DNA of 35,499 bases from Betaproteobacteria bacterium (lineage in GTDB: Bacteria; Pseudomonadota; Gammaproteobacteria; Burkholderiales; Rhodocyclaceae): NCBI GenBank assembly GCA_016868295.1, contig VGHJ01000027.1:1-35499 (forward strand). Direction: 5' to 3'. Each line of letters starts with the position of its first letter. Positions within the stretch are counted from its first letter, which is position 1. The notes under the pieces were generated by a model that was not told where the DNA came from, ran no database searches, and was given only the letters and a program-made list of their open reading frames with translations. This document shows positions 3,897-34,537 of the stretch, piece after piece. Made by a program: the position numbers and the translations under genes.

Positions 3897-4874
3897 ATGG
3901 ACCGGCGCACATTCTTCAAGGCGTCGATGGCCGGCGGCGCCGCCCTCGCCACGGGGGCGGCCACCTGTCCGGCACAGGCGCGCGACAACAATCCCATGCC
4001 GGCCGATGCGGTCGGCCTGCTCTTCGATTCCACCCTCTGCGTCGGCTGCAAGGCCTGCGTGGCCGCCTGCAAGGAGGCCAACGGCATGCCGCTGGAGTTC
4101 TCGACGAAGGACCAGTACTGGGACACGCCGCTCGACATCTCCGGCAAGACGCTCAACGTCATCAAGGCCTACCGCAACGGCAAGATGGAAGTGAAGGATC
4201 GCGAGGAGAATGGCTTCGCCTTCATCAAGAAGTCGTGCATGCACTGCGTCGATCCCTCCTGCGTCTCAGCCTGCCCGGTCTCGGCCATGAAGAAGGACCC
4301 GAAGAACGGCATCGTCACCTACGACAAGGAGGCCTGCATCGGCTGCCGCTACTGCGTGGCGGCCTGCCCCTTCGGCGTGCCGCGCTTCACCTACGACTCG
4401 CCGACGCCGCAGATCAGCAAGTGCCAGCTCTGCGTGCATCGCCACAAGGACGGCAAGTACGCCGCCTGCGCCGAGGTTTGCCCGACCGGCGCCACGCTCT
4501 ACGGCACGGTGGCCGACATCAACAAGGAGATCGCGCGGCGCAAGGCGCTCAAGCCGGGCGAGAAAACCAGTTTCCCGCGCGGCAAGCTGGGCGGTCCCGA
4601 CCAGAGCTACCCCGGCGTGGCGGCGAAGTACCTCGACCACACCTACGGCGAGAAGGAATTCGGCGGCACGCAGATGCTGATGCTCTCCGGCGTTTCCTTC
4701 CAGAAGCTGGGCTATCCGGATCTGCCGCCGCGCTCGGACGCGGCCATATCCGAAAAGCTGCAGCACACGCTCTACGGCGGCCTGATCGCGCCGATCGCCG
4801 TGCTTGGGGCGCTGACTTTCATCGCCAAGCGCAACGTCAAGCCGGAAGACGAGGAGGGGAGCCAACATGGCTAA
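3897..4874 (+). CDS. hybA: Hydrogenase-2 iron-sulfur subunit HybA
   Basis: Periplasmic ferredoxin-like subunit of 325 residues that relays electrons from HybO to the membrane subunit HybB. It has a Tat signal (MDRRTFFKAS) and sixteen cluster cysteines in four groups: 48/51/54/58, 114/117/122/126, 147/150/153/157 and 176/179/191/195. This fits four [4Fe-4S] clusters, as in the DmsB/HybA family. A C-terminal hydrophobic segment (about 293-313) anchors it. The ATG at 3897 follows the hybO stop by 2 bases; a longer in-frame ORF upstream is a shadow of hybO. The last 8 bases overlap hybB. The codons for the C-terminal membrane segment contain one copy of the dispersed CTGACTTT repeat (4797-4820). 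Confidence 0.95.
   Translation: MDRRTFFKASMAGGAALATGAATCPAQARDNNPMPADAVGLLFDSTLCVGCKACVAACKEANGMPLEFSTKDQYWDTPLDISGKTLNVIKAYRNGKMEVKDREENGFAFIKKSCMHCVDPSCVSACPVSAMKKDPKNGIVTYDKEACIGCRYCVAACPFGVPRFTYDSPTPQISKCQLCVHRHKDGKYAACAEVCPTGATLYGTVADINKEIARRKALKPGEKTSFPRGKLGGPDQSYPGVAAKYLDHTYGEKEFGGTQMLMLSGVSFQKLGYPDLPPRSDAAISEKLQHTLYGGLIAPIAVLGALTFIAKRNVKPEDEEGSQHG
4797..4820 (+). repeat. Dispersed CTGACTTT repeat, copy 1 (inside hybA)
   Basis: GCCGTGCTTGGGGCG is followed by CTGACTTTC. It aligns with the other copies in this window, lies within the coding sequence of hybA and is translated as AVLGALTF. Confidence 0.6.
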
Positions 4875-6024
4875 TCACGCACACGCGCCGCGCCCGCTCG
4901 GCGGCAGCTTCCTGTCGCCCCTCACGCTGCTGCTCGGCGTGCTGGCGGCGATCGCCGGGGTCATCCTGGTTTATCGCTTCATCTACGGCCTCGGCGCCGT
5001 CACCAACCTCAACGACGGCTATCCCTGGGGCATCTGGATCGCCTACGACGTGGTGATCGGCTCGGCCTTAGCCTGCGGCGGCTACTCGATGGCGCTGCTG
5101 GTCTACATCTTCAACAAGGGGCAGTACCACCCGCTGGTGCGGCCGGCCCTGCTGGCCAGCCTGTTCGGCTACACCCTGGCCGGCGTCTCGGTGATCTTCG
5201 ACCTCGGCCGCTGGTGGAACTTCTGGCACATCTTCTGGCCCGGCTACGCCCAGGTGAACTCGGTGATGTTCGAGGTGGCGGTCTGCATCTCGGCCTACAT
5301 CGTGGTGATGTGGATCGAGTTCTCGCCGGCCTTTCTCGAGAAGTGGGGCATGAAGGACGTCAGGCAGAAGCTGAACAAGCTGCTCTTCTTCTTCATCGCC
5401 CTGGGCGTGCTGCTGCCCTCGATGCACCAGTCCTCGCTCGGCTCGCTGCTGGTCATCTTCGGCGAGCAGATCCATCCGCTCTGGCGCTCGGGCATGATGC
5501 TGCCGGTGATTTACCTGGTGACGGCCATCCTGCTCGGCTTCGCCGTGGTGATCTTCGAGGCGACGCTGTCCTCGACCGGCTTCAAGCGGCAACTGGAGAC
5601 CCCGGTGCTGACGCCGCTGGCCAGGATCATGTACTGGACGCTGGCCGCCTACGTCGCCCTGCGCGTGATCGAGATCGTTGCGCGCGGTGCGCTCGGCACG
5701 GCCTTCGCCGCCACCTGGCAGGCGTTCTGGTTCTGGGTGGAAATGGCCTGCTTCGTCGTGCCGCTGGTGACGCTGGCTTCGGAGAATGCACGCCGCAGCG
5801 CGTCGAAGCTGTTCGTCGGCGCCGTGCTGCTGATGCTGGGCGGCTTCATGCTGCGCGTCAACGGCTTCCTCGTCGGCTACATGACGGGCGAAGGCTGGAG
5901 CTATTTCCCCTCGCTCGCCGAACTGATGGTCACCATCGGCATCATCGCCTTCGAGATCCTGGCCTACATCTACATCGTCAGAAACTACCCCGTGCTGCCC
6001 GCCGCGCAGCCGGCTTCGCGCTAA
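4867..6024 (+). CDS. hybB: Hydrogenase-2 integral membrane subunit HybB (NrfD/PsrC family)
   Basis: A 385-residue polytopic protein with about ten hydrophobic segments. It belongs to the NrfD/PsrC/HybB quinone-interacting family that takes electrons from HybA without heme. The N-terminal region GAVTNLNDGYPWGIWIAYDV is characteristic of the family. This replaces the cytochrome b (HupC/HoxZ) of group 1d enzymes and supports the group 1c assignment. The start overlaps hybA by 8 bases, which implies translational coupling. The ribosome binding site of hybC (AAAGGAGAGG) follows its stop directly. In E. coli Hyd-2 this subunit allows reversible, proton-motive-force-linked electron flow; whether that holds here is unknown. 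Confidence 0.94.
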   Translation: MANHAHAPRPLGGSFLSPLTLLLGVLAAIAGVILVYRFIYGLGAVTNLNDGYPWGIWIAYDVVIGSALACGGYSMALLVYIFNKGQYHPLVRPALLASLFGYTLAGVSVIFDLGRWWNFWHIFWPGYAQVNSVMFEVAVCISAYIVVMWIEFSPAFLEKWGMKDVRQKLNKLLFFFIALGVLLPSMHQSSLGSLLVIFGEQIHPLWRSGMMLPVIYLVTAILLGFAVVIFEATLSSTGFKRQLETPVLTPLARIMYWTLAAYVALRVIEIVARGALGTAFAATWQAFWFWVEMACFVVPLVTLASENARRSASKLFVGAVLLMLGGFMLRVNGFLVGYMTGEGWSYFPSLAELMVTIGIIAFEILAYIYIVRNYPVLPAAQPASR

Positions 6025-6038
6025 AGGAGAGGTAAAAA

Positions 6039-7739: not shown

Positions 7740-7768
7740 GCCCACGCCGTCCGGGCTTGCTACACTTA

Positions 7769-7799: not shown

Positions 7800-7809
7800 C
7801 GGAGCGCCC

Positions 7810-8400
7810 TTGAGAGCCATCATCCTCGGCATCGGCAACACCATCCTTAGCGACGAGGGCGTCGGCGTGCACGCCGCCGAGGCCTTGCGCGCGGCCTATG
7901 CGCTGCCGGAAGGGGTGGAAGTCATCGACGGCGGCACCGCCGGCATGGAGCTGCTCGATCCGCTTGCCGGCATCGACCTGCTGCTGGTGCTCGATGCCGT
8001 CAAGGCGAAGCGCGCGCCCGGCACCGTGATTTGCCTCGTGGGCAAAGAGGTACCGGTGTTCTTCCGCAGCAAGCTCTCTCCGCACCAGGTCAGCATCTGC
8101 GACGTGCTGGCGAGCCTCGAATTCGCCGGCGATCCGCCGAAGGACCTGGTGCTGATCGGCTGCGAGCCGCTCAGCCTGGAACTGGGCACCGAACTGACGC
8201 CCACCGTTGCGGAAAAGGTGCCGGAGATGGTTGCCGCCGCCGTCGAGCAGCTTGCCGCGCGCGGCATCAAACTCGAACCGTGCCAGGACATCGTAGAGGC
8301 CGCCCCGCCGCCGGGCCGCCCCAAGGCGGGGCCAGTCAACGGTCTGCGAGCGGAGCGAGCCGAAGTCACCCCTTCTCTCGGGGAAGGGGTCGGGGGATAG
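7810..8400 (+). CDS. hybD: Hydrogenase maturation endopeptidase HybD
   Basis: Nickel-dependent-recognition protease that trims the C-terminus of HybC. The family's metal-sensing residues are at E16 (LSDEGVG), D62 (VLDAV) and H92 (SPHQ). The start is a TTG at 7810 with CGGAG five bases upstream; no ATG gives the conserved MRAIILGIGN beginning. The real domain ends near residue 165. The last 30 or so residues, including PPPGRPKAGP and TPSLGEGVGG, come from an intergenic repeat (8365-8399) that has extended the reading frame, making 196 residues against about 160 in E. coli. It lies just after the terminator, so it is probably expressed by read-through or a weak promoter. Confidence 0.94.
   Translation: MRAIILGIGNTILSDEGVGVHAAEALRAAYALPEGVEVIDGGTAGMELLDPLAGIDLLLVLDAVKAKRAPGTVICLVGKEVPVFFRSKLSPHQVSICDVLASLEFAGDPPKDLVLIGCEPLSLELGTELTPTVAEKVPEMVAAAVEQLAARGIKLEPCQDIVEAAPPPGRPKAGPVNGLRAERAEVTPSLGEGVGG
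8365..8399 (-). repeat. CCCCCGACCCC palindromic repeat, copy 1
   Basis: Read on the minus strand, TATCCCCCGACCCCTT runs into an AAGGGGTGAC arm and forms a stem-loop. It matches the copy at 33039-33073. It forms the 3' end of hybD and adds its last residues. Confidence 0.7.
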
Positions 8401-8404
8401 GCTT

Positions 8405-8650
8405 ATGTGCCTGGCCATCCCCTCGCGCGTGCTGGAGATCAATGACCAGATGGCCTTGGTCGACACCGCCGGCGAACAGCGGAAGGTCAGCCTCCTGCTC
8501 ATGCACGAGGAGGTCGCCGTCGGCGACTACGTGCTGATCCAGCACGGCCAGTTCGCCTACGAGCGCGTCGACGCCGAGCGCGCCCGCGAGTCCCTGGCGC
8601 TGATGGAAGAAGTCTTCGCACAGGGCCAGGCCGATGTCCGCGCCTGGTAG
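8405..8650 (+). CDS. hybG: HypC/HybG-family hydrogenase maturation chaperone
   Basis: An 81-residue protein of the HypC/HybG/HupF family that carries the Fe(CN)2CO unit with HypD and delivers it to a large-subunit precursor. It has the N-terminal MCLAIP motif, whose Cys2 is essential. Lying in the hyb operon beside hybD and hybE, it is probably the HybC-dedicated paralogue, while the second copy at 22485 sits with hypD. The start is 4 bases after the hybD stop, and the 3' end overlaps hybE by 17 bases. Confidence 0.93.
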   Translation: MCLAIPSRVLEINDQMALVDTAGEQRKVSLLLMHEEVAVGDYVLIQHGQFAYERVDAERARESLALMEEVFAQGQADVRAW

Positions 8651-9173
8651 CGGCGCCCTCCGGCTTCACGCCGCCGATCCCGCGCCGCTGCTCGAAGCCG
8701 CCTTCCGCCGCATCCTGGCGGAGACCATGGCCGACGTGCCGATCCTCAATCCCGCCCTGCAAGTCGAAGCCGTCGGCTTTGCGCGCCACGGAGACCACTG
8801 GCTCGGCATCCTCATCACGCCCTGGTTCATGAATCTGGTGCTGGCGCCGGGCGCGGCCGCATCGTGGCAGAGCGTGGCGCCGGGCCTGCGCCTGTTCCGC
8901 AAGTTTCCCTCGGGCGACTTCGCCTTCCTCGGCAGCAACGAGCCTGAAGTGGGCGAATTCCAGTCCTGCTCGCTCTTCTCGCCCATGGCGCAGTTCGCCG
9001 AGCAGGCCGGCGCGCGCGAGGTCGCCCTCGCCGCGCTCCAGGCCCTGCAGAGCGACCCCGCCGCGCCCGAGCCGGCGCCGGGCAAGGAAGCCTTCGACGA
9101 CCCGAAACAGGCCGCCCTCGAGCGGCCGATGAGCAAGCGCGAATTCCTCGGCGCGGTCTTCCGGCGCGGTTGA
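8634..9173 (+). CDS. hybE: [NiFe] hydrogenase assembly chaperone HybE
   Basis: A 179-residue cytoplasmic chaperone. In E. coli HybE binds the HybO precursor and helps couple cofactor assembly to Tat export of the Hyd-2 heterodimer. The family hallmarks are the central stretch DVPILNPALQVEAVGF, GHWLGILITPWFMNLVL (here with D for G) and FPSGDFAF. HupJ of rubredoxin-linked systems is related, but no rubredoxin domain is present here. The C-terminal RPMSKREFLGAVF is shared with many homologues. It overlaps the end of hybG and is the last gene of the operon; no terminator is obvious after it. Confidence 0.92.
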   Translation: MSAPGSGALRLHAADPAPLLEAAFRRILAETMADVPILNPALQVEAVGFARHGDHWLGILITPWFMNLVLAPGAAASWQSVAPGLRLFRKFPSGDFAFLGSNEPEVGEFQSCSLFSPMAQFAEQAGAREVALAALQALQSDPAAPEPAPGKEAFDDPKQAALERPMSKREFLGAVFRRG

Positions 9174-9179
9174 GCGCTC

Positions 9180-9204
9180 GCGGTCATGCAGGGGCTGACT
9201 TTAC
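9180..9204 (+). repeat. Dispersed CTGACTTT repeat, copy 2
   Basis: GCGGTCATGCAGGGG then CTGACTTTACC, in the 61-base gap between hybE and hicA. Confidence 0.6.
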
Positions 9205-9649: not shown

Positions 9650-10276
9650 TCAGGCTGACGCCACCGCCACGCCCCAGTAGTGATAAGCAGCGATGCGCGG
9701 GCCGGGCAGGTACATCGCCTGCACCTCCGGCTCGAAGCCCGCTTCGCGCAACAGGGCCGGGATGTCGCGGCCGAGATGGTAGCCGCCGGCGAGCGGGCCC
9801 CGTAGCGGCTGGAGGCGCGCCTGCCAGCGCCGCACGCCCTCGTCCGGCGCGCGCCCGTGCTCGGAAAACAGCAATCGCCCGCCCGGTGCCAGCACGCGCC
9901 GCGCTTCGCGCAGCGCCGCCACCGGATCGGGAATCGTGCAGAGCGTATAGGTGCTGACGACTGTATCGAAGGCGCGGTCGGCCAGCGGCAGGCGCTCTGC
10001 GCCGATGCCGACGAGTTCCACCGGCAGCCGCGCCGCACGGCTGCGCCGCAACGCCAAATGATGCATGCGCAGAGAAGGCTCGACACCGACGATGCCGCTC
10101 ACGCGGCCCGCATCGTAGAAGGGCAGGTTGAGCCCGGTGCCCAGCCCGATCTCCAGCACAAGCCCCTGCGCATGCGGAATGACCTTGCGGCGCTGCTCGG
10201 CGAAGGACTTCATCCCGCAGGCAAAATCGATCAGCCAGGGCAGGACGTGGCGTTCGTACCAGTTGGGCGTGCTCAT
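9650..10276 (-). CDS. Class I SAM-dependent methyltransferase
   Basis: A 208-residue cytosolic methyltransferase of the UbiE-like Methyltransf_11 type. Motif I is LEIGLGTGLNLPFY (41-54), the acidic end of strand 2 is VGVEPS, and FDTVVSTYTLCTIPDP plus RVLAPGGRLLFSEHG are motifs II-III. The substrate cannot be read from the sequence. I chose the start at MSTPNWYERH (10276) because the longer frame up to 10393 has no family similarity and runs through a dispersed repeat copy (10335-10359). It converges with hicAB. Confidence 0.85.
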   Translation of the reverse strand: MSTPNWYERHVLPWLIDFACGMKSFAEQRRKVIPHAQGLVLEIGLGTGLNLPFYDAGRVSGIVGVEPSLRMHHLALRRSRAARLPVELVGIGAERLPLADRAFDTVVSTYTLCTIPDPVAALREARRVLAPGGRLLFSEHGRAPDEGVRRWQARLQPLRGPLAGGYHLGRDIPALLREAGFEPEVQAMYLPGPRIAAYHYWGVAVASA

Positions 10277-10334
10277 GGGTAATGCGCGTAGGGGCCAGCC
10301 TGAAGTATAGAAGCGAACGCCGGACGCGGCGGCG

Positions 10335-10359
10335 GAAAAGTCAGTCGCCCCAGCACGGC
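10335..10359 (-). repeat. Dispersed CTGACTTT repeat, copy 3
   Basis: On the minus strand it reads GCCGTGCTGGGGCGA then CTGACTTTTC. It lies in the divergent spacer between the methyltransferase and the membrane-protein gene. Confidence 0.6.
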
Positions 10360-10441
10360 GGGCAGATTGCCGGCCGGCGCATCGCGATGGCATGATTCGG
10401 GAACGTCACAAGATCGATGGAACAAACTTGCCGGGAGGACC

Positions 10442-11004
10442 GTGAAGCCGATGCTCAAGACGCTGCTCATCGAGGAACTGCGCTTCCTGTTCTTCCGCCC
10501 GAACGGCCCGGCCATCCGCAGCCACTGGAAAGCGTTCCTTGCCTTCGGCCTGCTCTTCATCTCATCACCCTGACCGCGCCCCCGGTGGCGCTCTACGCCA
10601 TTCCAGTGGAGAGATTCATGGCGGCCGAGGCGGCGCGCAGCGCCAATGCCTGGTTCCTCATCGTCGTCGCCACCTGGCGGGTGGCGCTCTACGTGGTTTT
10701 CCTGAAGCGGGTGGCCGGGCTGTCGCCCGGCAACGTCGCGGTCGCCGCCCTGCTGCCCCTGGTCATCATCGTGATCGGCCTCACCATGCTCAACCTCGAG
10801 CACGTCGTGTTCAGCCTGATGAGCGGCATCCGTGAAGAGGACCGCAGCCCGAACGACGCCGCCTACGGCGTGGTGTTCATGCTCTCCATGCTGTCCTTCA
10901 TGGCCGCCCCGTTTCTCGCGCTGGGCTACCTGGTTGCGATCGTCAACGCCTTCAGGGGAACGGAAGAGAAATCAGGGGTGGCGCCGGGCAGGCGCGATGA
11001 GTGA
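10442..11004 (+). pseudogene. Small hydrophobic membrane-protein gene with a frameshift
   Basis: Starts at a GTG with GGGAGGA just upstream and reads MKPMLKTLLIEELRFLFF, then SHWKAFLAFGLLFIS up to about 10560. That frame stops at 10571-10573. A second frame continues directly with LITLTAPPVALYAIPVERF and three further hydrophobic segments to 11004. Joined, they give about 187 residues with about four transmembrane helices. One missing base within about 10555-10566 explains the break. It could be a true mutation, a sequencing error or, less likely, programmed frameshifting. I do not recognise the family. Confidence 0.68.
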
Positions 11005-11013
11005 ACGATCGGC

Positions 11014-11038
11014 GCCGTCCTGCGGGGACTGACTTTTC
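11014..11038 (+). repeat. Dispersed CTGACTTT repeat, copy 4
   Basis: GCCGTCCTGCGGGGA then CTGACTTTTC, in the spacer after the frameshifted membrane-protein gene. Confidence 0.65.
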
Positions 11039-11147: not shown

Positions 11148-11208
11148 CCAGCGCCGTTGATACAGGCTCATCCGACTTGTGTTTGGGTAAGGGCAGTTGT
11201 TTTCCATC

Positions 11209-11238
11209 CCCCTCTCCCCGCAAGCGGGGAGAGGGGGC
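11209..11238. repeat. CCCTCTCCCCGC palindrome (REP-like), copy 1
   Basis: A perfect 14-bp inverted repeat, CCCCCTCTCCCCGC with loop AA. It lies 22 bases beyond the ltaE stop. It lacks the GGGGTGAGGGG tail seen in the other copies. It may work as a transcript end for ltaE, though no T-run accompanies it. Confidence 0.7.
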
Positions 11239-12286: not shown

Positions 12287-12386
12287 GGCGGCTCCGTGTA
12301 GTGTATTCATGGAACCATAGCGCAAAGCCGCGCTTTCTGCCGGGCAAAAAAAGTCGAGGCAGGGCGCCGCGGCCGGCGGCCGCGGC

Positions 12387-12411
12387 GCCGTGCCGCCGGG
12401 ACTGACTTATC
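12387..12411 (+). repeat. Dispersed CTGACTTT repeat, copy 5
   Basis: GCCGTGCCGCCGGGA then CTGACTTATC, one base off the core. Bases 12385-12408 are identical to the copy near 30147-30170. It lies in the ltaE-hoxF spacer. Confidence 0.65.
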
Positions 12412-12520: not shown

Positions 12521-14308
12521 ATGCCCGAACAAGACGTTTGCGACCTGCCGGGGATCGTTGCCCGCTGGCACCGCGATCCCGCCAACCTGGTGCAGATCCT
12601 GCGCGACATCCAGGAAGCCTGCGGCACGATTCCGTCCGACACGATCGACCGCCTGGCGGCGCTGCTCGATGTGCCGCGCGTGCGCATCGAGTCGACGGCG
12701 AGCTTCTATGCCTTCTTCCGCGCCGAGTCGCACGGCGCCTACGAGATCCTCTTCTCCGACAACGTCATCGACCGGATGGCCGGCAAGGAGACGCTCAAGC
12801 AGTATTTCTGCGAGCGGCTCTGGCTCGAGCCGCGCAAGCTCTCCGAGGACGGGCTGGTGTACGTCGACGACACGGCCGACATCGGCCTCGCCGACCAGGC
12901 GCCGGCGCTGCTGGTGAACGGCTACGCGATTCCCTCGCTCGACCAGGCGCGCCTCGATCTCGTCGCCGAGCTGATCCGGGCGAAGAAGCCGCTCGCCGAG
13001 TGGCCGCCGATGCTGTTCGAGGTGCCCGACAACGTGCGCAAGCCCGGCCCGCTGACGGGCGAGGCGTTCGCGCCGGGTGCTGCGCTGCGGGCCCTGATCG
13101 CGCGCGGCGCCGAGGCGACGCTGGCCGATGTCGACCTCGCCAACCTGCGCGGCCGCGGCGGCGCCGGCTTCAAGACGGCGACCAAGTGGGCGAGCTGCCG
13201 CAAGGCGGAAGGGGAATCACATTACGTGGTATGCAACGCCGACGAGGGCGAGCCGGGCACCTTCAAGGACCGCGTGCTGCTCGCCAGCCACGCCGATCTG
13301 GTCTTCGAGGGCATGACGGTGTGCGCCCGCGTCATCGGCGCGCGCCAGGGTCTGCTTTACCTGCGCGGCGAGTACAGGAACCTGCTGGAAAAACTGAAGT
13401 CGGTCCTGGCGAGACGGCGCGATGCCGGGCTGCTGGGACAGAACATCCTCGGCGAACAAGGCTTCGACTTCGACATCGAGATCCACCTCGGCGCCGGCGC
13501 CTACATCTGCGGCGAGGAGTCGGCGCTGATCGAGTCGCTCGAGGGCAAGCCGGGCAAACCGCGCAACCGCCCGCCCTTTCCGGACCGCTGCGGCTACCGC
13601 AACCAGCCGACGGTGGTGAACAACGTCGAGACATTCGCCAGCGCGGCGAAGATCGCCGAGCGCGGCGGCGCCTGGTTCGCCGCCATGGGCACGCCGCAGT
13701 CGGCCGGCACGAAGCTGGTCTCGATCTCCGGCGACTGCCGGCGGCCGGGCGTGTACGAAGTTCCATTCGGCGTCACGGTGCGACAGATCCTCATCGACTG
13801 CGGCGCCGAGGACGCCCACGCCGTGCAGGTCTCCGGGCCGTCCGGCACCTGCATTTCCTTCCGCGAGTTCGACCGCCGCATCGCCTTCGAGGACCTTGCC
13901 ACGGCCGGCGCCTTCATGGTCTTCTCGCGCGAACGCGACATGTTCGAGGTGGCGCGCAACTTCACGCACTTCTTCGCCCACGAGAGCTGCGGCTTCTGCA
14001 CGCCCTGCCGCGTCGGCACGACGCTGCTGAAGAACACCATGGACAAGCTGGCGGCGGGCAAGGGCTCGGCCTACGACATGAACGAGATGAAGCACATCAT
14101 GCACATCCTGCGCGGCATGGCGCACTGTGGCTTGGGCCACACGGCGGCCAACCCGGTGGTGCAGACCATGGAAAAATTCCCCGACGCCTACGAGCGAAGG
14201 CTGAAGCGGCTCGACTTCGAGCCGGCCTTCGACCTCGACGGCGCGCTTGCCACCGCACGCCTCATTACCGGCCGCGACGACGAGTGGGCCCACCTCGCCA
14301 ATGAGTAA
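12521..14308 (+). CDS. hoxF: NAD-reducing hydrogenase diaphorase subunit HoxF
   Basis: A 595-residue fusion of NuoE-like (about 1-155) and NuoF-like (about 180-560) domains. It binds FMN and NAD(H) and exchanges electrons with HoxU. FMN and NADH motifs are GRGGAGF (211-217) and GAGAYICGEE (324-333). A [4Fe-4S] cluster is bound by C490, C493, C496 and C536. The NuoE-like part has lost the [2Fe-2S] cysteines: the region where NuoE carries its second Cys pair reads ADIGLAD (119-125) and the first pair region LFSDNV. It is the first gene behind an FNR-type promoter. Its last 8 bases overlap hoxU. The cytosolic complex couples H2 and NAD+/NADH. Confidence 0.96.
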   Translation: MPEQDVCDLPGIVARWHRDPANLVQILRDIQEACGTIPSDTIDRLAALLDVPRVRIESTASFYAFFRAESHGAYEILFSDNVIDRMAGKETLKQYFCERLWLEPRKLSEDGLVYVDDTADIGLADQAPALLVNGYAIPSLDQARLDLVAELIRAKKPLAEWPPMLFEVPDNVRKPGPLTGEAFAPGAALRALIARGAEATLADVDLANLRGRGGAGFKTATKWASCRKAEGESHYVVCNADEGEPGTFKDRVLLASHADLVFEGMTVCARVIGARQGLLYLRGEYRNLLEKLKSVLARRRDAGLLGQNILGEQGFDFDIEIHLGAGAYICGEESALIESLEGKPGKPRNRPPFPDRCGYRNQPTVVNNVETFASAAKIAERGGAWFAAMGTPQSAGTKLVSISGDCRRPGVYEVPFGVTVRQILIDCGAEDAHAVQVSGPSGTCISFREFDRRIAFEDLATAGAFMVFSRERDMFEVARNFTHFFAHESCGFCTPCRVGTTLLKNTMDKLAAGKGSAYDMNEMKHIMHILRGMAHCGLGHTAANPVVQTMEKFPDAYERRLKRLDFEPAFDLDGALATARLITGRDDEWAHLANE

Positions 14309-15029
14309 AACCTTCACCCTCGACGGCAAGGTCATTCCCTTCGAGGAGGGCGAGACCATCATGGAGGCGGCGACGGCGGCGGGCGTCTACATCCCGCACC
14401 TGTGCCACCACCCCGAATTCAAGCCGCACGGCTCGTGCAAGCTGTGCACGGTGAGCATCGGCGGGCGGCTCGGCGCCGCCTGCACCAACCGGGCCGAGGA
14501 GGGCATGAAGGTGGAGAGCGAAACCGAGGCGCTCAACGCCGACCGGCGATCCCTCGTGCAGATGCTCTTCGTCGAGGGCAACCACGTCTGCCCGTCCTGC
14601 GAGAAGAGCGGCAACTGCCAGTTGCAGGCGGTGGGTTACCACCTCGGCATGCTGACGCCGCACTTCCCGCATTTCTACCCGGCACGCGACGTCGACGCCT
14701 CGCATCCGGACATGCTGCTCGAGCGCAACCGCTGCATCCTGTGCGAGCTGTGCGTACGCGCCAGCCGCGACGTCGACGGCAAGAACGTCTTCGGCATCGG
14801 CGGGCGCGGCATCCGGGCGCGCCTCATCGTCAACGCGGCGACGGGCCGTCTCGCCGACACCGACTTTTCCGTCACCGACCGCGCCGCCGAGGTGTGCCCG
14901 ACCGGCGCCATCATCCGCAAGCGCTACGGCTTCACCGTGCCGATCGGCAAGCGGCTCTACGACCGCCACAGCATCGCCGAGCTTCCCCCTCTCCCCGCCA
15001 AGCGGGGAGAGGGCCGGGGTGAGGGGTAG
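14301..15029 (+). CDS. hoxU: NAD-reducing hydrogenase diaphorase subunit HoxU
   Basis: A 242-residue NuoG-N-terminal-like iron-sulfur subunit linking HoxF to the HoxYH hydrogenase. [2Fe-2S] ligands are C35, C46, C49 and C61. A His-Cys3 cluster is bound around H95, C97, C100 and C106. A [4Fe-4S] cluster uses C145, C148, C151 and C199. The natural protein ends near residue 227. The last residues (LPPLPAKRGEGRGEG) are translated from a REP-like palindrome at 14985-15026 that carries the stop shortly after. The start overlaps hoxF by 8 bases. Confidence 0.95.
   Translation: MSKTFTLDGKVIPFEEGETIMEAATAAGVYIPHLCHHPEFKPHGSCKLCTVSIGGRLGAACTNRAEEGMKVESETEALNADRRSLVQMLFVEGNHVCPSCEKSGNCQLQAVGYHLGMLTPHFPHFYPARDVDASHPDMLLERNRCILCELCVRASRDVDGKNVFGIGGRGIRARLIVNAATGRLADTDFSVTDRAAEVCPTGAIIRKRYGFTVPIGKRLYDRHSIAELPPLPAKRGEGRGEG
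14985..15026 (+). repeat. CCCTCTCCCCGC palindrome with GGGGTGAGGGG tail, copy 2
   Basis: CCCCCTCTCCCCGC (14985-14998) pairs with GCGGGGAGAGGG (15002-15013), followed by the tail CCGGGGTGAGGGG (15014-15026). It encodes the HoxU C-terminus, and its GAGGGG lies 4 bases before the hoxY ATG, where it may act as a Shine-Dalgarno sequence. Confidence 0.8.
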
Positions 15030-15567: not shown

Positions 15568-15650
15568 TTGTCGGTTACCAGTTCCCGGTTGTCAGTGGAT
15601 GGGTGCGCTGGCCGGAACTGGCAACCGGCAACTGGCAACTGGGAACTGAG
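15568..15650. repeat. GGCAACTG-type palindromic repeat, copy 1 (hoxY-hoxH spacer)
   Basis: The left part GGTTACCAGTTCCCGGTT and the right part CCGGCAACTGGCAACTGG are largely inverse complements. The right arm ends one base before the hoxH ATG. A longer hoxH reading frame through it is not family sequence. Confidence 0.72.
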
Positions 15651-19191: not shown

Positions 19192-19272
19192 GAGCGGTTG
19201 CCAGTTGTCGGTTCCCGGTTGCCGGAAGGCGGCAACGCGAACCGGCAACTGGCAACGGGCAACTGGGAACTG
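19192..19272. repeat. GGCAACTG-type palindromic repeat, copy 2 (hypA-hypB spacer)
   Basis: Contains GTTGCCG-gaagg-CGGCAAC (perfect 7-bp stem) flanked by CAGTTGTCGGTTCCCGG on the left and CCGGCAACTGGCAACGGG on the right. It closely resembles the copy at 15568. It fills almost the whole spacer and ends just before the GGAGGAAAC ribosome binding site of hypB. Confidence 0.72.
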
Positions 19273-20157: not shown

Positions 20158-22467
20158 ATGACCGTCGCCGCCCGCGCCACTGCCGTCGTCTGCCGCCGCA
20201 TCCGCGTGCGCGGGCAGGTGCAGGGCGTCGGCTTCCGGCCTTTCGTCTATCGCCTGGCGCAGGAGTTGAACCTTGCCGGCTGGGTGCGCAACGACGGTGA
20301 GGGGGTGGACATCGAGGTGCAGGGCGTGGTGCAGGCGGTCGAGGCGCTGATCGTCCGGCTGGAAATGGAAGCGCCCCCGCTGGCGAGCGTCACCGCCGTC
20401 GAGGCGAGCGAGGCGCCCGTCACCGGCGCAGGCGGCTTCGAGATAAAAGTCAGTCGCCACGGCACGGCGAACACTTCCGTGACGCCCGACGGCGTCACCT
20501 GCCCGGACTGCCTCGCCGAGTTGTTCGATCCCGCCGGCCGGCGCTGGCGCCACGCCTTCATCAACTGCACGCACTGCGGTCCGCGCTATAGCCTGACGCG
20601 CCATCTTCCCTACGACCGGCCGCAGACCAGCATGGCGGCCTTCGCCATGTGCCCGGCCTGCCGGGCGGAGTACGACGATCCGGCCGACCGGCGCTTCCAT
20701 GCCCAACCGAATGCCTGTCCCCAATGTGGCCCGCGTCTCGCTTTGCGAGACGCGGAGGGCGGGCCGCTGTCTGTGGATGATCCCATCGCCGAAACGCTCG
20801 CCCGTCTGCAACGCGGCGAGATCGTCGCCATCAAGGGCCTCGGCGGCTACCACCTCGCTTGCGACGCGACGAACGCCGAAGCCGTCGCCCGACTGCGCGA
20901 ACGCAAGAACCGCGAAGAAAAACCCTTCGCCGTGATGCTGGCCAACGCGGCGTCGGTGGCGCAGTTTGCCGAAATGAACGACGCCGAGCGCGCGCTGCTC
21001 GAATCGCGCGAGCGGCCGGTGGTGCTGTTGCAGAAACGCGCCGGCTGCGACGCCGCGCTGCCCGGCGTCGCGCCGAGCCTCGGCGAACTCGGCGCGATGC
21101 TGCCCTGCACGCCGATCCAGTTCCTGCTTTTCCACGAGGCGGCGGGCCGCCCGGCCGGCACCGCCTGGTCTGCCGTTCCGCAGCGACTGACTTTGGTCAT
21201 GACCAGCGCCAACCCCGGCGGCGAACCGATCGTGCGCGACGACGATGAGGCGCTGGCGCGGTTGGACGGCATCGCCGACGCCTTCCTCATGCACGATCGC
21301 GAAATCGTCACGCGGGTGGACGACAGCGTCGTGCGTGCCAGGCAATTCATCCGCCGCGCCCGCGGCTTCATCCCACAACCCATCAGACTCGCCAAACCCG
21401 GCCCCTCCGTCCTCGGCACCGGCGGCTTCCTCAAGAACACGATCTGCCTCACGCGCGGCGACGAGGCCTTCCTCTCCCAGCACATCGGCGATCTCGACAA
21501 TGCGCCGACCTGCCGCGCGCTGGAGGAGACCGCCCAGCGCCTGATGGACCTGCTGCAGATCGAGCCGGAGATCGTCGCCCACGACCTGCATCCTGATTTC
21601 CACGGCACGCGCTTCGCCGCCGATTTTGCGCGCAGCCGCGGCCTGAAATCCATCGCCGTGCAGCACCACCACGCCCACATCGCCGCGGTGGCGGCGGAGC
21701 ATGGCGTGACGGGGCCGCTGCTCGGCCTCGCCCTCGACGGCGTCGGCATGGGAACGGACAAGGGCATCTGGGGCGGCGAGCTGCTCGCCGTCGACGGCGA
21801 ACGCTTCGACCGCCTTGGCCACCTGCGCGAGCTGGCGCTGCCGGGCGGCGACAAGGCGGCGCGCGAGCCCTGGCGCATGGCCGCCGCGGCGCTCTTCGCC
21901 CTCGGCCGCGGCGGCGAGATCAAGGCGCGTTTCCCGCAGCAGCGCGCCGCCGGGGCGATCGCCATGATGCTCGGCGGCAACGCCCACACGCCGCCGACCT
22001 CGAGCTGCGGCCGCCTCTTCGACGCTGCGGCCGGGCTGGCCGGGCTGCGCGAGATTGCGGCGTATGAAGGGCAGGCGGCGATGCTCTACGAAAGTCAGGC
22101 TGCGCAATACGGCGAGGTGGCGCCGATGCCGGACGGGTTCGTGCTGAACGACGACGGCACGCTCGACCTGCTGCCGCTGCTTTCGCGCCTGGCCGACGAG
22201 CGCGACGCAGGTTTCGCCGCCGCGCTGTTCCACGCCACCTTGTCGGAAGCGCTGGCGGCCTGGGCCGTGTGTGCCGGCGCAGAGTGCGGACTGCACCGCG
22301 TCGCGCTGGGCGGCGGCTGCTTTCTCAACCGCATCCTGAGCGCCGGCGTACGGCGGTGTCTGGAAGCGAAAGGATTCGAAGTGCTGGAGGCGCGGCGGGC
22401 GCCCCCGAACGATGGCGGCCTGAGCCTCGGCCAGGCCTGGATTGCCCAACAGGCAACCGGCAACTGA
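20158..22467 (+). CDS. hypF: Carbamoyltransferase HypF
   Basis: A 769-residue protein that turns carbamoyl phosphate and ATP into the thiocarbamate on HypE, source of the CN ligands. Domains in order: acylphosphatase (about 12-100, [10 protein letters not shown] with R27 and RND with N45); two zinc fingers (C115/C118, C137/C140, C165/C168, C187/C190); YrdC-like (about 205-390); and Kae1-like (about 400-760, [15 protein letters not shown] and LGGGCFLN). The coding sequence contains three copies of the dispersed CTGACTTT repeat (20444, 21172, 22090), translated in frame. The last residues, QQATGN, come from the GGCAACTG-type repeat. Confidence 0.96.
20444..20468 (-). repeat. Dispersed CTGACTTT repeat, copy 6 (inside hypF)
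   Basis: On the minus strand it reads GCCGTGCCGTGGCGA then CTGACTTTTA. It encodes about KVSRHGTA in HypF, in the linker before the zinc fingers. Confidence 0.6.
21172..21196 (+). repeat. Dispersed CTGACTTT repeat, copy 7 (inside hypF)
   Basis: GCCGTTCCGCAGCGA then CTGACTTTGG, encoding AVPQRLTLV next to the conserved [11 protein letters not shown] of the YrdC-like domain. Confidence 0.6.
22090..22113 (-). repeat. Dispersed CTGACTTT repeat, copy 8 (inside hypF)
   Basis: On the minus strand it reads GCCGTATTGCGCAGC then CTGACTTTC, the most diverged left half. It encodes ESQAAQYGE in the Kae1-like domain. Confidence 0.5.
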
Positions 22468-22478
22468 CAACTGGAAAC
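22450..22478. repeat. GGCAACTG-type repeat, copy 3 (hypF-hypC junction)
   Basis: A short, half-length copy: CAGGCAACCGGCAACTGA and CAACTGGAAAC. It provides the hypF stop codon and most of the 17-base spacer before hypC. Confidence 0.6.
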
Positions 22479-22484
22479 CGAATC

Positions 22485-22721: not shown

Positions 22722-23851
22722 AGTACATCAATGAATTCCGCGACGGCAAGACCGCCCGCGTCATCGCGGCGGCCATCGCCGCCGAGACGCGCGCCGACCG
22801 CCGCTACCACATCATGGAATTCTGCGGCGGCCACACCCACGCCATCTCGCGCTACGGCCTCTCCGACCTCTTGCCGCAGAACATCCGCCTCATCCACGGC
22901 CCGGGCTGCCCGGTGTGCGTGCTGCCGATCGGCCGCATCGACAACGCCATCGACCTCGCGCTCAACCGCGGCGTCATCCTCGCCACCTACGGCGACTGCC
23001 TGCGCGTGCCGGCCTCCGGCGGCCTGTCGCTCTTGAAGGCCAAGGCGCGCGGCGCCGACGTGCGCATGGTGTACTCCAGCGCCGACGCGCTGAAGCTGGC
23101 GCAGGACCACCCGGAACGCGAGGTGGTGTTCTTCGCCATCGGCTTCGAGACCACCACGCCGCCCACCGCCGTGGCGCTGCTGCAGGCGGAAAAGCTCGGC
23201 CAGAAGAATTTCTCGGTGTTCTGCAACCACGTGCTGACGCCCTCGGCAATCGCCAACATCCTCGAGTCGCCGGAAGTCAGGCTGCACGGCACGGTGCCGC
23301 TCGACGCCTTCATCGGCCCGGCCCACGTGTCGACGGTGATCGGCAGCCAGCCCTACGAGCATTTCGCCGAGGAATACGAGAAGCCGGTGGTGATCGCCGG
23401 CTTCGAGCCGCTCGACGTCATGCAGGCCATCCTCATGCTGGTGCGGCAGCTCAACGAGGGCCGCGCCGAGGTCGAGAACGAGTTCTCCCGTGCCGTCACG
23501 CGCGCGGGCAACGTCAAGGCGCAGAACCTGGTGGCCGAGGTGTTCGAGCTACGCAAGAGCTTCGAATGGCGCGGCCTCAACGAAGTGCCCTACAGCGCCC
23601 TGCGCATCAAGGCGAAGTACGCCGCCTTCGACGCCGAGCGCCGCTTCGGCATCGAATACAAGTCGGTGGCCGACAACAAGGCCTGCGAGTGCGGGGCGAT
23701 CCTGCGCGGACTCAAGCGCCCGCAGGACTGCAAACTGTTCGGCACGGTGTGCACCCCGGAGAATCCGATGGGCTCCTGCATGGTGAGCTCCGAAGGCGCC
23801 TGCGCGGCCCATTACACCTACGGCCGCTACAAGGATGCGGTGGGTGTTTAA
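22718..23851 (+). CDS. hypD: Hydrogenase maturation scaffold HypD
   Basis: A 377-residue iron-sulfur protein on which the Fe(CN)2CO unit is assembled with HypC. Conserved motifs are FCGGHTHAI (C36), GPGCPVC (C64, C67) and GFETTTP. C-terminal cysteines in [20 protein letters not shown] and [10 protein letters not shown] hold the [4Fe-4S] cluster. The GTG start at 22718 overlaps the hypC stop. The TAA stop ends right at the first of two facing REP-like palindromes. Confidence 0.96.
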
Positions 23852-23892
23852 CCCCCTCTCTCCGCAAGCGGGGAGAGGGCTGGGGTGAGGGG
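23852..23892 (+). repeat. CCCTCTCCCCGC palindrome with inward tail, left arm of the DUF559 cassette
   Basis: CCCTCTCTCCGC (23854-23865) pairs with GCGGGGAGAGGG (23868-23879), one G-T pair. The tail CTGGGGTGAGGGG (23880-23892) points toward the DUF559 gene. The tail is the exact inverse complement of 24235-24247. Confidence 0.85.
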
Positions 23893-23908
23893 AAGACGTG
23901 GGAGTCAG

Positions 23909-24295
23909 ATGAACGAAGCCGCCAGGACATTACGACGCAACCAGACCGACGCCGAGAGATTGCTCTGGCATCACTTGCGCGACCGTCGTCTGGATGGCTG
24001 GAAGTTCAGAAGGCAGCATCCGATCGGTCCATATGTGCTTGATCTTTATTGTGCGGATGCAAACCTCGTGATCGAAGTCGACGGCGGTCAACACGATTAT
24101 GACGAGCACAGAAAACATGACGAGAAGAGAGCAGCCTACCTCGTCAGTCAGGGGTTAAAAGTGATGCGATTCTGGAACAACGAAGTGATGGAAAACACCA
24201 TGGGTGTTCTCGATGCGATTCGTGAGGCGTTGGGCCCCTCACCCCAGCCCTCTCCCCGCGAGCGGGGAGAGGGGGAGGTCGGCGCGCGTGAGTAA
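23909..24295 (+). CDS. DUF559 / Vsr-like putative endonuclease
   Basis: A 128-residue member of the DUF559 family, related to very-short-patch-repair and restriction endonuclease folds. It has RRNQTDAERLLWHHLRD (E16), FRRQHPIGPYVLDLYC (D45), LVIEVDGGQH (E56, D58) and GLKVMRFWNNEVM. The acidic residues fit a PD-(D/E)xK-type active site; activity is not shown for most members. The ATG at 23909 has GTGGGAG upstream. The last 20 residues or so (PSPQPSPRERGEG...) are translated repeat sequence. The gene sits between hypD and hypE, exactly framed by two facing palindromes, and has no known role in hydrogenase maturation, so it looks inserted. Its stop overlaps the hypE start by 8 bases. Confidence 0.88.
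   Translation: MNEAARTLRRNQTDAERLLWHHLRDRRLDGWKFRRQHPIGPYVLDLYCADANLVIEVDGGQHDYDEHRKHDEKRAAYLVSQGLKVMRFWNNEVMENTMGVLDAIREALGPSPQPSPRERGEGEVGARE
24235..24275 (-). repeat. CCCTCTCCCCGC palindrome with inward tail, right arm of the DUF559 cassette
   Basis: The tail CCCCTCACCCCAG (24235-24247) faces inward, followed by CCCTCTCCCCGC (24248-24259), loop GA and GCGGGGAGAGGG (24262-24273). It is in inverted orientation to 23852-23892. Its GAGGGGGAGG end is the likely Shine-Dalgarno sequence of hypE. Confidence 0.85.
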
Positions 24296-30061: not shown

Positions 30062-30148
30062 GGCGTTTCCAAAACAGTCACGTTGAATCGCAGTATGTCA
30101 GGATCGGAAGATTCGGCAATCCGGTTCTTGCGCAAGGCGGCCGGCAGC

Positions 30149-30173
30149 GCCGTGCCGCCGGGACTGACTTTTT
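30149..30173 (+). repeat. Dispersed CTGACTTT repeat, copy 9
   Basis: GCCGTGCCGCCGGGA then CTGACTTTTT, abutting the 3' end of prfC. Bases 30147-30170 are identical to 12385-12408. Confidence 0.65.
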
Positions 30174-31921: not shown

Positions 31922-31937
31922 TGGCATGGAAATTGGA
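31922..31937 (+). promoter_or_regulatory. Weak sigma54-like element upstream of hoxB
   Basis: TGGCATGGAAATTGGA has a good -24 half (TGGCATG) at the right spacing, but the -12 half is TTGG instead of TTGC. The change hits an invariant base, so activity is doubtful. In Cupriavidus hoxBC is expressed at a low constant level, which would not need this site. Confidence 0.25.
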
Positions 31938-31992
31938 AAGCTTTTGACCGGCGCGCTTGCCTGGCGCGGCAGTCCACGGCAAGCTCGGCCCC

Positions 31993-33033
31993 ATGAACGG
32001 CGCGCATGAACCCGGCTTCTTCGAGATGAAGTCCACTTTCAACCTGCTCTGGCTGCAGTCGGCCGGCTGCGGCGGTTGCAGCATGTCGCTGCTCTGTTCC
32101 GAGGCGCGCGACCTCACCGCGGCGCTCGAGGCGGTGGGCATCCGCATCCTGTGGCACCCGAGCCTGTCGGAGGCGAACGGCGACGAAGTGAAGCGCATCT
32201 TCGAACAGTGCCTCTCCGGCGAAGTGGCGCTCGATGCGCTGTGCGTGGAGGGCGCGCTGCTGCGCGGGCCGCGCGGCACGGGCCGCTTCCACCGCCATGC
32301 CGGTTCGGATGTCGCCATGATCGAGTGGGTGAAGAAGCTCGCCCATGTTTCGCGCCACACCCTGGCCGTCGGCAGTTGCGCCGCCTGGGGCGGCGTGGCG
32401 GCGGCGGGGGAGAACGTCACCGACGCCTGCGGCCTGCAGTTCGAGGGCGACCAGCCCGGCGGGCTGCTCGGCGCGGCCTGGCGCGGGCACGGCGGGCTGC
32501 CCGTCATCAACATCGCCGGCTGCCCCTGCCATCCGGACTGGATCACCGAGACGCTGACGGCGCTGGCGCTGGGCGCCTTCGGCCAGCAGGATCTCGACAG
32601 CTTCAACCGCCCGCGCTTTTTCGCCGACCACCTGGTGCACCACGGCTGCACGCGCAACGAGTACTACGAGTTCAAGGCCAGCGCGCACAAGCCTTCCGAC
32701 CTCGGCTGCCTGATGGAGAACATGGGCTGCAAGGGCACGCAGGCCCACGCCGACTGCAACATCCGCCTGTGGAACGGCAACGGCTCCTGCGCGCGCGGCG
32801 GCGCGCCGTGCGTCTCCTGCACCGAGCCGGGTTTCGAGGAGCCGGGCCATCCCTTCCACGAGACGCCGAAGCTGGCCGGCATCCCCATCGGCCTGCCCAC
32901 CGACATGCCGAAGGCCTGGTTCGTCGCGCTCGCCGCCCTGTCGAAATCGGCGACGCCGAAGCGCGTGCGCGAGAACGCCGTGGCCGACCACCAGGTCGTC
33001 GTTCCCGCCGTCAAGAAGACAGGCCTGAAATGA
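31993..33033 (+). CDS. hoxB: Regulatory (H2-sensing) hydrogenase small subunit HoxB
   Basis: A 346-residue small subunit of the group 2b sensor hydrogenase. No Tat signal and no membrane anchor, so cytosolic. The proximal cluster begins with AGCGGC (C26, C29), and [16 protein letters not shown] is highly typical of HoxB/HupU. Distal and medial ligands lie in [23 protein letters not shown] and ADCNIRLWN through [10 protein letters not shown]. In Cupriavidus the HoxB C-terminus also mediates contact with HoxJ. ATG 31993 gives an N-terminus like known HoxB proteins; ATG 32026 is an alternative. The stop is followed by a palindromic repeat and then hoxC. Confidence 0.94.
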
Positions 33034-33038
33034 CGACC

Positions 33039-33073
33039 TATCCCCCGACCCCTTTCCCGCGGAAAGGGGTGAC
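33039..33073 (+). repeat. CCCCCGACCCC palindromic repeat, copy 2
   Basis: TATCCCCCGACCCCTTT with loop CCCGCG and the arm GAAAGGGGTGAC. It is the inverse of 8365-8399 and fills about half of the hoxB-hoxC spacer. Confidence 0.7.
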
Positions 33074-33109
33074 GCTGGTTCAGCCGCTGCGCGGCTTCCG
33101 GGGTATGGC

Positions 33110-34537
33110 ATGACCCGCATCGTCGTTGGCCCCTTCAATCGCGTCGAGGGTGACCTCGAAGTCACGCTGGAGATGAAGGACGGCGTCGTCGCCGAGGCCT
33201 GGGCCGGCTCGCCGCTGTATCGCGGCTTCGAGCAGATCCTGCGCGGCAAGCATCCGATGGACGCGCTGATGTTCGCGCCGCGCATCTGCGGCATCTGCTC
33301 GGTGTCTCAGTCGGTCGCCGCTGCCACGGCGCTGGCCGATGCCATGGGCCTCGCCCCGGCGCCGAACGGCCGCATTACGAAGAACCTCGCCCACGCGGTG
33401 GAGAACGTCGCCGACCATTTCACGCACTTCTATCTCTTCTTCATGCCCGACTTCGCGCGCGCCGAGTACGCCGGCCGTGCCTGGCACGAACGGGCGACGG
33501 AGCGCTTCCGCGCCGTGCGCGGCAGCGCGACGGGAACGATCCTGCCGGCGCGCACGGCCTTTCTCACCGCCATGGGCACGCTGGCCGGCAAGTGGCCGCA
33601 CAGCCTGGCCATCCAGCCCGGCGGCGTCGCGCGCGCGCTGGAGTCCTCGGAGAGGATCCGCCTGTTCGGCCTGCTGCGCGATTTCCGCCGCCACGTCGAG
33701 ACGACGCTGTTCAACGACGAACTGGAAGCGGTGGCGGCGCTCGACTCCGTCGCGGCGCTCTCGCGCTGGGCCGGCGAGAAGCCGCGCGGCGACTTCGGCG
33801 CCTTCCTCGGGATCGCCGAAGATCTGCAGCTCGAATCGCTCGGCCGCGGCCTCGACCGCTTCATGAGCTACGGCAACTATCCGCAGGCGGAAAGTCAGTT
33901 CCTGCGGGGCGGCGTCTGGGACGGGAAACTGCATGCGCTCGACGCGCAGGCCATCGCCGAAGACATCAGCCACGCCTGGCTCGAGGGCGAGACACGCCAC
34001 CCGGCGCAGGGCGTCACCCGGCCGCAGGACGAGAAGGCCGCCGGCTACACCTGGTGCAAGGCGCCGCGCCTGGCCGGCCAGCCGATGGAGACCGGCGCCC
34101 TGGCGCGGCAGGCGGTGAATGGCCACCCGCTGGCGCGCGATCTCGTCACGAACGGCGGCGGCAACGTGAAGAGCCGCGTCGTGGCGCGCCTGCTCGAGAT
34201 CGCCGTGCTCCTGCCGGAGATGGAGACGTGGGTGCAGCAGTTGGCGCCCGGCGAGCCCTTCTGCACGCAGGGCGAGATGCCGCGCGAGGCCGCCGGCACC
34301 GGGCTGGTCGAGGCCGCGCGCGGCAGCCTCGGCCACTGGATTTCCGTCGAGGGCGGGCGCATCGCCAACTACCAGATCGTCTCGCCGACGACCTGGAACT
34401 TCTCGCCGCGCGACGGCGAAGGCACGCCCGGCCCGCTCGAGCAGGCGCTGGTCGGCACGCCGGCGGGCGAGGGGAATGTCGCCGTGCAGCATGTCGTGCG
34501 ATCATTCGATCCGTGCATGGTGTGCACTGTCCACTAA
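33110..34537 (+). CDS. hoxC: Regulatory (H2-sensing) hydrogenase large subunit HoxC
   Basis: A 475-residue Ni-Fe subunit. RICGIC holds C60 and C63; the C-terminus is DPCMVCTVH followed directly by the stop, so there is no peptide to cleave and no protease is needed, a hallmark of sensory HoxC/HupV proteins. Ile62 and Phe110 occupy the two positions whose bulk narrows the gas channel and gives oxygen insensitivity in Cupriavidus and Rhodobacter sensors. One dispersed-repeat copy (33890-33913) lies in frame (AESQFLRG). The ATG at 33110 yields the family beginning TRIVVGPFNRVEGDLEV. Low-rate H2 turnover here should signal to HoxJ. Confidence 0.96.
   Translation: MTRIVVGPFNRVEGDLEVTLEMKDGVVAEAWAGSPLYRGFEQILRGKHPMDALMFAPRICGICSVSQSVAAATALADAMGLAPAPNGRITKNLAHAVENVADHFTHFYLFFMPDFARAEYAGRAWHERATERFRAVRGSATGTILPARTAFLTAMGTLAGKWPHSLAIQPGGVARALESSERIRLFGLLRDFRRHVETTLFNDELEAVAALDSVAALSRWAGEKPRGDFGAFLGIAEDLQLESLGRGLDRFMSYGNYPQAESQFLRGGVWDGKLHALDAQAIAEDISHAWLEGETRHPAQGVTRPQDEKAAGYTWCKAPRLAGQPMETGALARQAVNGHPLARDLVTNGGGNVKSRVVARLLEIAVLLPEMETWVQQLAPGEPFCTQGEMPREAAGTGLVEAARGSLGHWISVEGGRIANYQIVSPTTWNFSPRDGEGTPGPLEQALVGTPAGEGNVAVQHVVRSFDPCMVCTVH
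33890..33913 (-). repeat. Dispersed CTGACTTT repeat, copy 11 (inside hoxC)
   Basis: On the minus strand it reads GCCGCCCCGCAGGAA then CTGACTTTC. It is translated as AESQFLRGG in HoxC. Confidence 0.58.

Follow-up and report, generated by a model that had tools for sequence, protein, structure and literature searches.

Why does one short DNA motif recur in both orientations, inside genes as well as between them, along a single stretch of a bacterial chromosome, and what keeps it there? The stretch, hereafter the window, comprises 35,499 nucleotides, positions 1 to 35,499 of contig VGHJ01000027.1 (assembly GCA_016868295.1) from a member of the Rhodocyclaceae deposited as Betaproteobacteria bacterium, and it lies on contig 27 of a draft genome of 2.67 Mb in 118 contigs (G000). 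The original prediction listed eleven copies of a dispersed motif and proposed that it was an uptake or segregation signal, a recombination site, or a small mobile repeat tolerating insertion into genes. Of these options the uptake signal fits best, the small mobile repeat is contradicted by the data, the segregation signal is unsupported, and nothing in the present data supports a dedicated recombination site. We put the probability that the motif is a DNA uptake sequence at about three in four, with preferential uptake and a cognate receptor predicted from the pattern of the sites.

The repeat is an ungapped bipartite motif, CGCCGT-N10-CTGACTTT, 24 bp long, with two conserved arms 10 bp apart. 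The window holds 10 copies of CTGACTTT against a mean of 0.28 in 100 shuffles, in line with the predicted ten exact 8-mers where fewer than one would be expected by chance, and 14 matches to the bipartite form with up to 2 mismatches against a mean of 0.28 and a largest value of 2 in 100 shuffles; a spacing of nine bases (N9) gave 0 matches in the window (0.21 expected). Wider sampling covered 430,499 bases of G000 (the window plus 20 stretches) and 1.2 Mb of the chromosome of a complete, single-contig relative that we took as Candidatus Desulfobacillus denitrificans (G010). When spacings from 4 to 18 were allowed across 1,595,000 sampled bases of these two genomes, the arms lay 10 bases apart in 214 of 216 cases and 7 apart in the other 2. 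In the G000 sample, no 8-mer pair is more overrepresented than CTGACTTT with its reverse complement (75 versus 2.2 under a third-order Markov model), and a logo of these 75 copies has sharp edges and flanks without conservation. A weight matrix built from the same 75 copies, so that 75 of its sites are its training set, finds 91 sites at ≥14 bits and 90 at ≥16 bits in the G000 sample, where simulated sequence of equal length yields 1 and 0. Across the whole of G000, GGNACTGACTTT occurs 68 and 73 times on the two strands (2 and 1 for a reversed control), and GCCGTNNNGNNGNNRCTGACTTT, with up to one mismatch, 202 and 201 times (0 and 0 for the control), so the genome-wide count stands well above chance. 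Extrapolation gives about 560 sites in G000 (91 in 430 kb) and about 650 in G010 (249 in 1.2 Mb). Strong genome-wide overrepresentation of one short motif is itself characteristic of uptake sequences.

All eleven predicted copies are present, at positions within about 2 bases, and three further copies, each with 2 mismatches, lie at 13396(-), 14844(+) and 23273(-). The 14 copies in the window are:

4795..4820, plus strand: exact bipartite core, encoding IAVLGALTF, inside a HybA-like 4Fe-4S gene (3891-4874); retained in the G010 orthologue
9178..9203, plus strand: 1 mismatch, 4 bp past the stop of the called gene 8634-9173
10336..10361, minus strand: exact core, between called genes or in the N-terminal part of a methyltransferase open reading frame (ORF; 9650-10393) whose start codon is uncertain
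11012..11037, plus strand: exact core, 7 bp past the stop of the called gene 10585-11004
12385..12410, plus strand: 1 mismatch, ends CTGACTTA, between called genes
13395..13420, minus strand: weak, 2 mismatches, CCGACTTC, in a 51-kDa-type gene (12521-14308); a good copy stands in the G010 orthologue (27.7 bits)
14843..14868, plus strand: weak, 2 mismatches, CCGACTTTT, in gene 14301-15029; absent from the G010 orthologue
20445..20470, minus strand: exact core, IKVSRHGTA, in hypF, antisense
21170..21195, plus strand: 1 mismatch, in hypF
22090..22115, minus strand: exact core, ESQAAQYGE, in hypF, antisense
23272..23297, minus strand: weak, 2 mismatches, CTGACTTC, in hypD
30147..30172, plus strand: exact core, immediately adjoining the prfC stop codon
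30772..30797, plus strand: exact core, MKVSHRRTA, inside prfC (RF3), antisense
33890..33915, minus strand: 1 mismatch, in a hydrogenase large-subunit gene (33110-34537)

Six of the predicted copies do lie in open frames, as had been claimed: one in the HybA-like 4Fe-4S gene, three in hypF, one in prfC and one in the hydrogenase large-subunit gene, which the prediction had named hoxC. The atypical peptide noticed at the prfC copy is also real, and it is the product of substitution rather than insertion. We compared four motif places, the one in prfC and the three in hypF, across relatives (prfC in 30 of 30 genomes, the hypF places in 23, 23 and 28 of 30). The number of codons at the prfC place is unchanged in 30/30 genomes whether or not the motif is present, and most hypF rows show neither gain nor loss; a number of gaps and insertions occur in the distant ones. 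Motif letters are retained within the genus while neighbouring letters change, and in other genera the codons differ, so relatives that lack the motif do not show the same codons by conservation. Repetitive extragenic palindromes and their mosaic elements (REP/BIME), miniature inverted-repeat transposable elements (MITEs) and Correia elements insert as units and are palindromic or near-clonal. The motif resembles them in its many dispersed copies, found in both orientations, which is what a miniature mobile repeat inserting into genes would also produce. That such a repeat accounts for the motif is scarcely credible, however: the copies arose by substitution in place with no insertion relative to orthologous sites, conservation ends at the motif edges and leaves the flanks unconserved, and individual copies differ at degenerate positions. 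The prediction, too, had judged the motif unlike a transposon or a normal REP.

Conservation is equally visible between the two sampled genomes. Orthologous alignments of G000 and G010 contain 31 sites, of which two weak ones (12.4 and 19.0 bits) were dropped; 25 of the remaining 29 keep at least 14 bits, and the other four correspond to an alignment gap or a lost site. Identity over these 29 sites is 415/435 (95.4%) in the core, 222/261 (85.1%) in the middle and 628/856 (73.4%) in the 15-bp flanks, with 82.7% across all aligned sequence. Coding copies use rare codons (ACT is 3.2% of Thr codons and TTT 10.4% of Phe codons). Conservation among orthologues together with rare codons indicates that the DNA sequence itself is maintained, and that neither insertion nor protein constraint is responsible. 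Origin by substitution followed by conservation at orthologous places is another trait of uptake sequences.

Some relatives have lost or weakened places. In G547, a congener with almost no copies (one match in 92 kb sampled), three of the four places have disappeared (7.6, 2.8 and -3.8 bits) and the fourth, though weaker, can still be recognised (24.9 bits), where carriers in the genus score about 28-38 bits at the prfC and hypF places. The prfC place is lost in G549, which has 57 copies, and two of three hypF places are weak in G023, a carrier of genus g23. Separately, a nine-codon insertion in the hypF of G538 (L235) interrupts a motif place that is intact in sister species.

How the sites are distributed bears on a second explanation, namely that a chromosome protein inside the cell binds the motif, be it a nucleoid organiser, a segregation or recombination factor or something Chi-like, and that selection maintains the sites in their hundreds. 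The length, the two arms and the fixed spacing do resemble those of a protein site, and site counts in G000 vary less than expected at random (variance 1.15 around a mean of 3.90 in 20 stretches, one being 15 kb long). Known chromosomal signals such as FtsK-orienting polar sequences (KOPS), Chi, matS and parS are short, overrepresented or repeated and often within genes, and they are strand-biased or regionally clustered. Neither property is seen here. The two strands carry near-equal numbers in the draft window genome (68/73 and 202/201, as above), and the 263 sites of at least 10 bits in the G010 sample divide into 139 on the plus and 124 on the minus strand with no visible replichore bias, so the motif lacks the polarity of KOPS or Chi; lack of strand or replichore bias is in turn a trait of uptake sequences. 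Nor is there clustering of the matS or parS kind, since the 249 sites of at least 14 bits in the sample of the complete genome are Poisson-like (mean 4.15 and variance 4.06 per 20 kb). Low-GC stretches of G010 are poorer in sites (Spearman 0.52 over 60 stretches; mean 3.1 below 65% GC versus 4.4 above). With these counts by strand and per 20 kb the proposed segregation signal finds no support, and we regard a chromosome-protein site in general as unlikely, if worth keeping in view. A one-stranded look among the matches listed for G010 and G073 raised the idea of a strand-biased signal; given the balanced sample of G010, we read it as an artefact.

With respect to genes, 60 of the 91 G000 sites fall wholly within called genes, 18 are intergenic and 13 straddle a gene end, and the corresponding numbers for the 249 G010 sites are 182, 45 and 22. 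About 90% of the sequence is called coding, which implies a two- to fourfold enrichment outside genes depending on how overlaps are counted; genes were called with our own codon-score script, and these fractions are approximate. Coding copies lie on the same strand as the gene in 114 cases and antisense in 68 in G010 (35 and 25 in G000). None of the 149 same-strand copies uses the frame that reads TGA, as is required, and five of the six frames are used. One frame, encoding a membrane-helix-like AVLxGLTF, holds 136 of the 149, the one observation that might be expected if the motif were a by-product of chance or codon usage. We give that idea almost no credence in view of the spacing (214 versus 2), the 141 occurrences against 3 for the reversed control, the rare codons and the use of five frames.

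Sites between genes raise a third possibility, that the motif is mainly a transcription terminator or some other RNA-level element spread through the genome. G010 has an excess of intergenic sites between convergent genes (14, with 6.2 expected) and a deficit between divergent genes (3, with 12.9 expected), and three head-to-head pairs in this genome form hairpins of -27.8, -46.2 and -35.6 kcal/mol, with T tails and with a called gene's stop codon 2, 6 and 4 bp away. Such a role could hardly be the main one when most sites in both genomes (182/249 and 60/91) are wholly within called genes, on both gene strands, and close head-to-head pairs number only 3; we consider it very improbable.

The motif is largely a family affair. 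A strict form, CGCCGTSCYGCGGGGACTGACTTTT, was found in 60 stretches among 84,980 species genomes, 53 of which are labelled Rhodocyclaceae, Rhodocyclales, Sulfuritalea or Candidatus Desulfobacillus denitrificans (AP021857.1, 3,145,360 bp). The other seven (two Betaproteobacteria, one Pseudomonadota and one each of Bacteroidia, Thermoanaerobaculia, Acidobacteria and Phycisphaerae) are of metagenomic origin and may be misbinned. Within the window's genus, 13 of 16 genomes have 212-506 copies with up to one mismatch, and the other three have 57, 24 and 15. A generalised pattern matched at least once in 97 of 248 family genomes from 68 genera, and reached 72-605 copies in 39 genomes of nine genera (g1, g2, g9, g19, g23, g38, g46, g64 and g66), the remaining 59 genera having at most 11. 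Six genomes inside the nine carrier genera are low in copies (G547 with 3, G637 with 15, G641 with 0, G577 with 4, G620 with 3 and G084 with 1); completeness is below 90% in four of these six, and their low counts may hide an unseen dialect. A low count in any genome may likewise reflect an unseen dialect, for which G547 alone was sampled (the 92 kb above). Class-wide, 20 of 369 genomes had a match and only G000 had more than 2. Order-wide, with a one-mismatch pattern, 137 of 399 genomes matched, nearly all of those outside the family with 1-5 copies, the exceptions being G230 with 14 and G168 with 9.

We rejected G168, of another family, as a carrier. Its matches are nine identical 23-mers, and the eight fetched lie in one repeated element whose flanks are near-identical across the eight places (one copy differs on the left, one on the right); because they are sited in that element, they are not the dispersed motif. 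In G230, from another family of the same order, one 8-kb region of 72% GC (G230:C45:4500-12500) has five window-dialect copies of at least 14 bits, and this cluster could be an imported island or a misbinned contig, the genome as a whole having the 14 copies already given. Genomes of non-carrier genera (G129, G083, G056 and G055) have a handful of dialect copies lying close together, possibly DNA imported from carriers. Among viral contigs, 7 stretches show the dialect of the window's genus and at least 80 the CCGACTTTT dialect, and 55 of 85 loci have a single generalised match; these matches are not decisive, because such contigs can include host flanks.

Other genera share the architecture and differ in letters, on small samples of 2-15 matches per genome. 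The g9 dialect is CGCCGTSYYGCCAGCRCCGACTTTT (11 strong sites in 40 kb), that of g66 is CGGCGTNYYGCCRCGGCTGACTTTC, and that of g46 is roughly GCCGTNYCGCCRGCGCCGACTTTT, a form that g2, g19 and g64 share, judging by few sites. Consensus sequences for g2, g19, g23, g38 and g64 come from few sites, and the automatic consensus was noisy for g2 and g23. Lineage dialects within a family are again a trait of uptake sequences, here on the small samples just described. For a chromosome-protein site, the same dialects, and near-absence in close relatives, would need the re-selection of hundreds of sites.

The motif probably works like two known kinds of uptake sequence. Passages of PMC3630211 and PMC12616744 describe, for the DNA uptake sequences (DUS) of Neisseriaceae or the uptake signal sequences (USS) of Pasteurellaceae, dialects, a UGA in one frame, inverted pairs that form terminators, and sites inside and between genes. 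The Neisseriaceae DUS, which the minor pilin ComP reads, resembles our motif in its dialects, its UGA in one frame, its placing inside and between genes and its many dispersed copies, and perhaps in its terminator-forming pairs. It comes from a different family, and it starts with GCCGT, as does the Rhodocyclaceae motif after its first C (PMC3630211, in the sections cited). The Pasteurellaceae USS, for which ComN/PpdA is the predicted receptor, is alike in genome-wide enrichment, in having two versions and perhaps in inverted repeats acting as terminators (same passages of PMC3630211 and PMC12616744), and unlike in its unrelated sequences, AAGTGCGGT and ACAAGCGGT. The motif is not a Neisseriaceae DUS proper, of the GCCGTCTGAA type with its CTG core: the consensus departs after GCCGT, and a second conserved arm is present. 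The common GCCGT (GCCGTC in the g9 dialect) may reflect ancestry or chance. Among the open-licence papers listed by our searches, none was seen to report uptake sequences in Rhodocyclaceae. We think it likely that this is a third family with sequence-tagged self-recognition in natural transformation, with a longer, two-arm tag, at least three dialects, nine genera and repeated losses by lineage, and with a first arm (GCCGT, or GCCGTC in one dialect) that may share ancestry with the Neisseria tag.

We propose that in carriers, that is Ca. Desulfobacillus and eight other Rhodocyclaceae genera, a competence receptor at the cell surface would prefer DNA with CGCCGT-N10-CTGACTTT or the dialect of the lineage. 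Fragments that gain a site by mutation would then be taken up and recombined more often, and sites would accumulate by substitution wherever protein or regulatory context tolerates them. Once there, they would persist at the same positions, diverge into dialects by genus and decay after a lineage loses the preference; a few intergenic sites in head-to-head pairs may also act as terminators. Accumulation driven by uptake bias would account for the retention of the same letters at hundreds of places in unrelated genes, for their drift between genera and for their decay in a related lineage. From this pattern we infer natural competence, the receptor and the uptake bias in carriers, and a loss of preference in low-copy lineages. 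Also in favour of an uptake sequence are the surplus of sites outside genes, the avoided TGA frame, the convergent-gene bias and hairpin pairs of G010, the lower site numbers in its low-GC stretches, and ComEC and a set of type IV pilin-like genes in G000.

Several observations weigh against an uptake sequence. The case rests on pattern. The motif, with its two arms and 24 bp, is longer than a DUS, which is 10-12 bp with a CTG core. In G000 the bias toward convergent genes is weak (convergent 4 versus 2.3 expected, divergent 3 versus 5.3), and few head-to-head pairs lie close together (3 among the 249 sites of G010, 0 among the 91 of G000). Competence machinery, for which we searched ComEC, GspH and N-methyl pilins, does not separate carriers, an observation that would also suit a chromosome-protein site. 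ComEC is present in 38 of 40 genomes, G547 and other non-carriers included, as well as in G000; it is missing from G541 and G577, two low-copy genomes whose completeness is only about 80%. GspH-type pilins are found in 38 of 40 genomes, and the two with no match, G010 and G046, are carriers, which speaks against a receptor of the GspH type at that threshold. N-methyl pilin signals occur in 20 of 20 genomes, with 5 in the carrier G000 and 6 in the non-carrier G547. We accordingly rejected the presence of ComEC, GspH or N-methyl pilins, common to carriers and non-carriers, as the cause of carrier status. No pilin among those fetched from eight genomes tracks the motif or its dialect: minor pilins differ strongly between G000 and G010 despite their common dialect, and a PilA-like protein is 89% identical between these two and 44% identical to the closest one fetched from G121. 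A GRxR motif is reported for FimT of gamma-proteobacteria in the section of PMC8897410 cited here, and it is not evident in the FimT-like proteins of our genomes.

Of five pilin-like candidates in G000, one lies on contig 20 and four are encoded side by side on contig 47, as follows:

PilE-like protein, contig 47: N-terminal pilin signal and matches below the cut-off
FimT-like protein, contig 47: GspH match
PilV, contig 47: match above the curated cut-off
PilW-like protein of 398 aa, contig 47: no NCBIfam match; named from its N-terminus, size and place

A 1521-aa ORF after this row may be PilY1, a guess from position.

If the Rhodocyclaceae do tag their DNA for uptake, they would be a third family with such a tag, this one environmental, and its dialects and closely related low-copy genomes would let the origin, drift and death of uptake tags be followed by comparison. 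Comparing gene losses between carriers and low-copy relatives would help find the receptor, and the motif could serve as a DNA fingerprint or tracer of gene flow in this group of bacteria, which has one member known from anammox reactors (PMC8402940, in part).

The window itself includes a dense [NiFe] hydrogenase region (2734-27091 and 33110-34537), in which a Pfam scan of ten genes found two large subunits, one small subunit, diaphorase-type genes, hypF and hypD. It also holds other repeats. GC-rich inverted repeats of about 28-41 bp, unlike the motif, lie at 8365-8401, 11193-11235, 23837-24276 and 33037-33073 (CCCCTCTCCCCGC...GCGGGGAGAGGGG and a second type), and short direct repeats of the GGCAACTGGCAACTGGGAACTG type at 15615-15648, 19225-19272 and 22447-22480.

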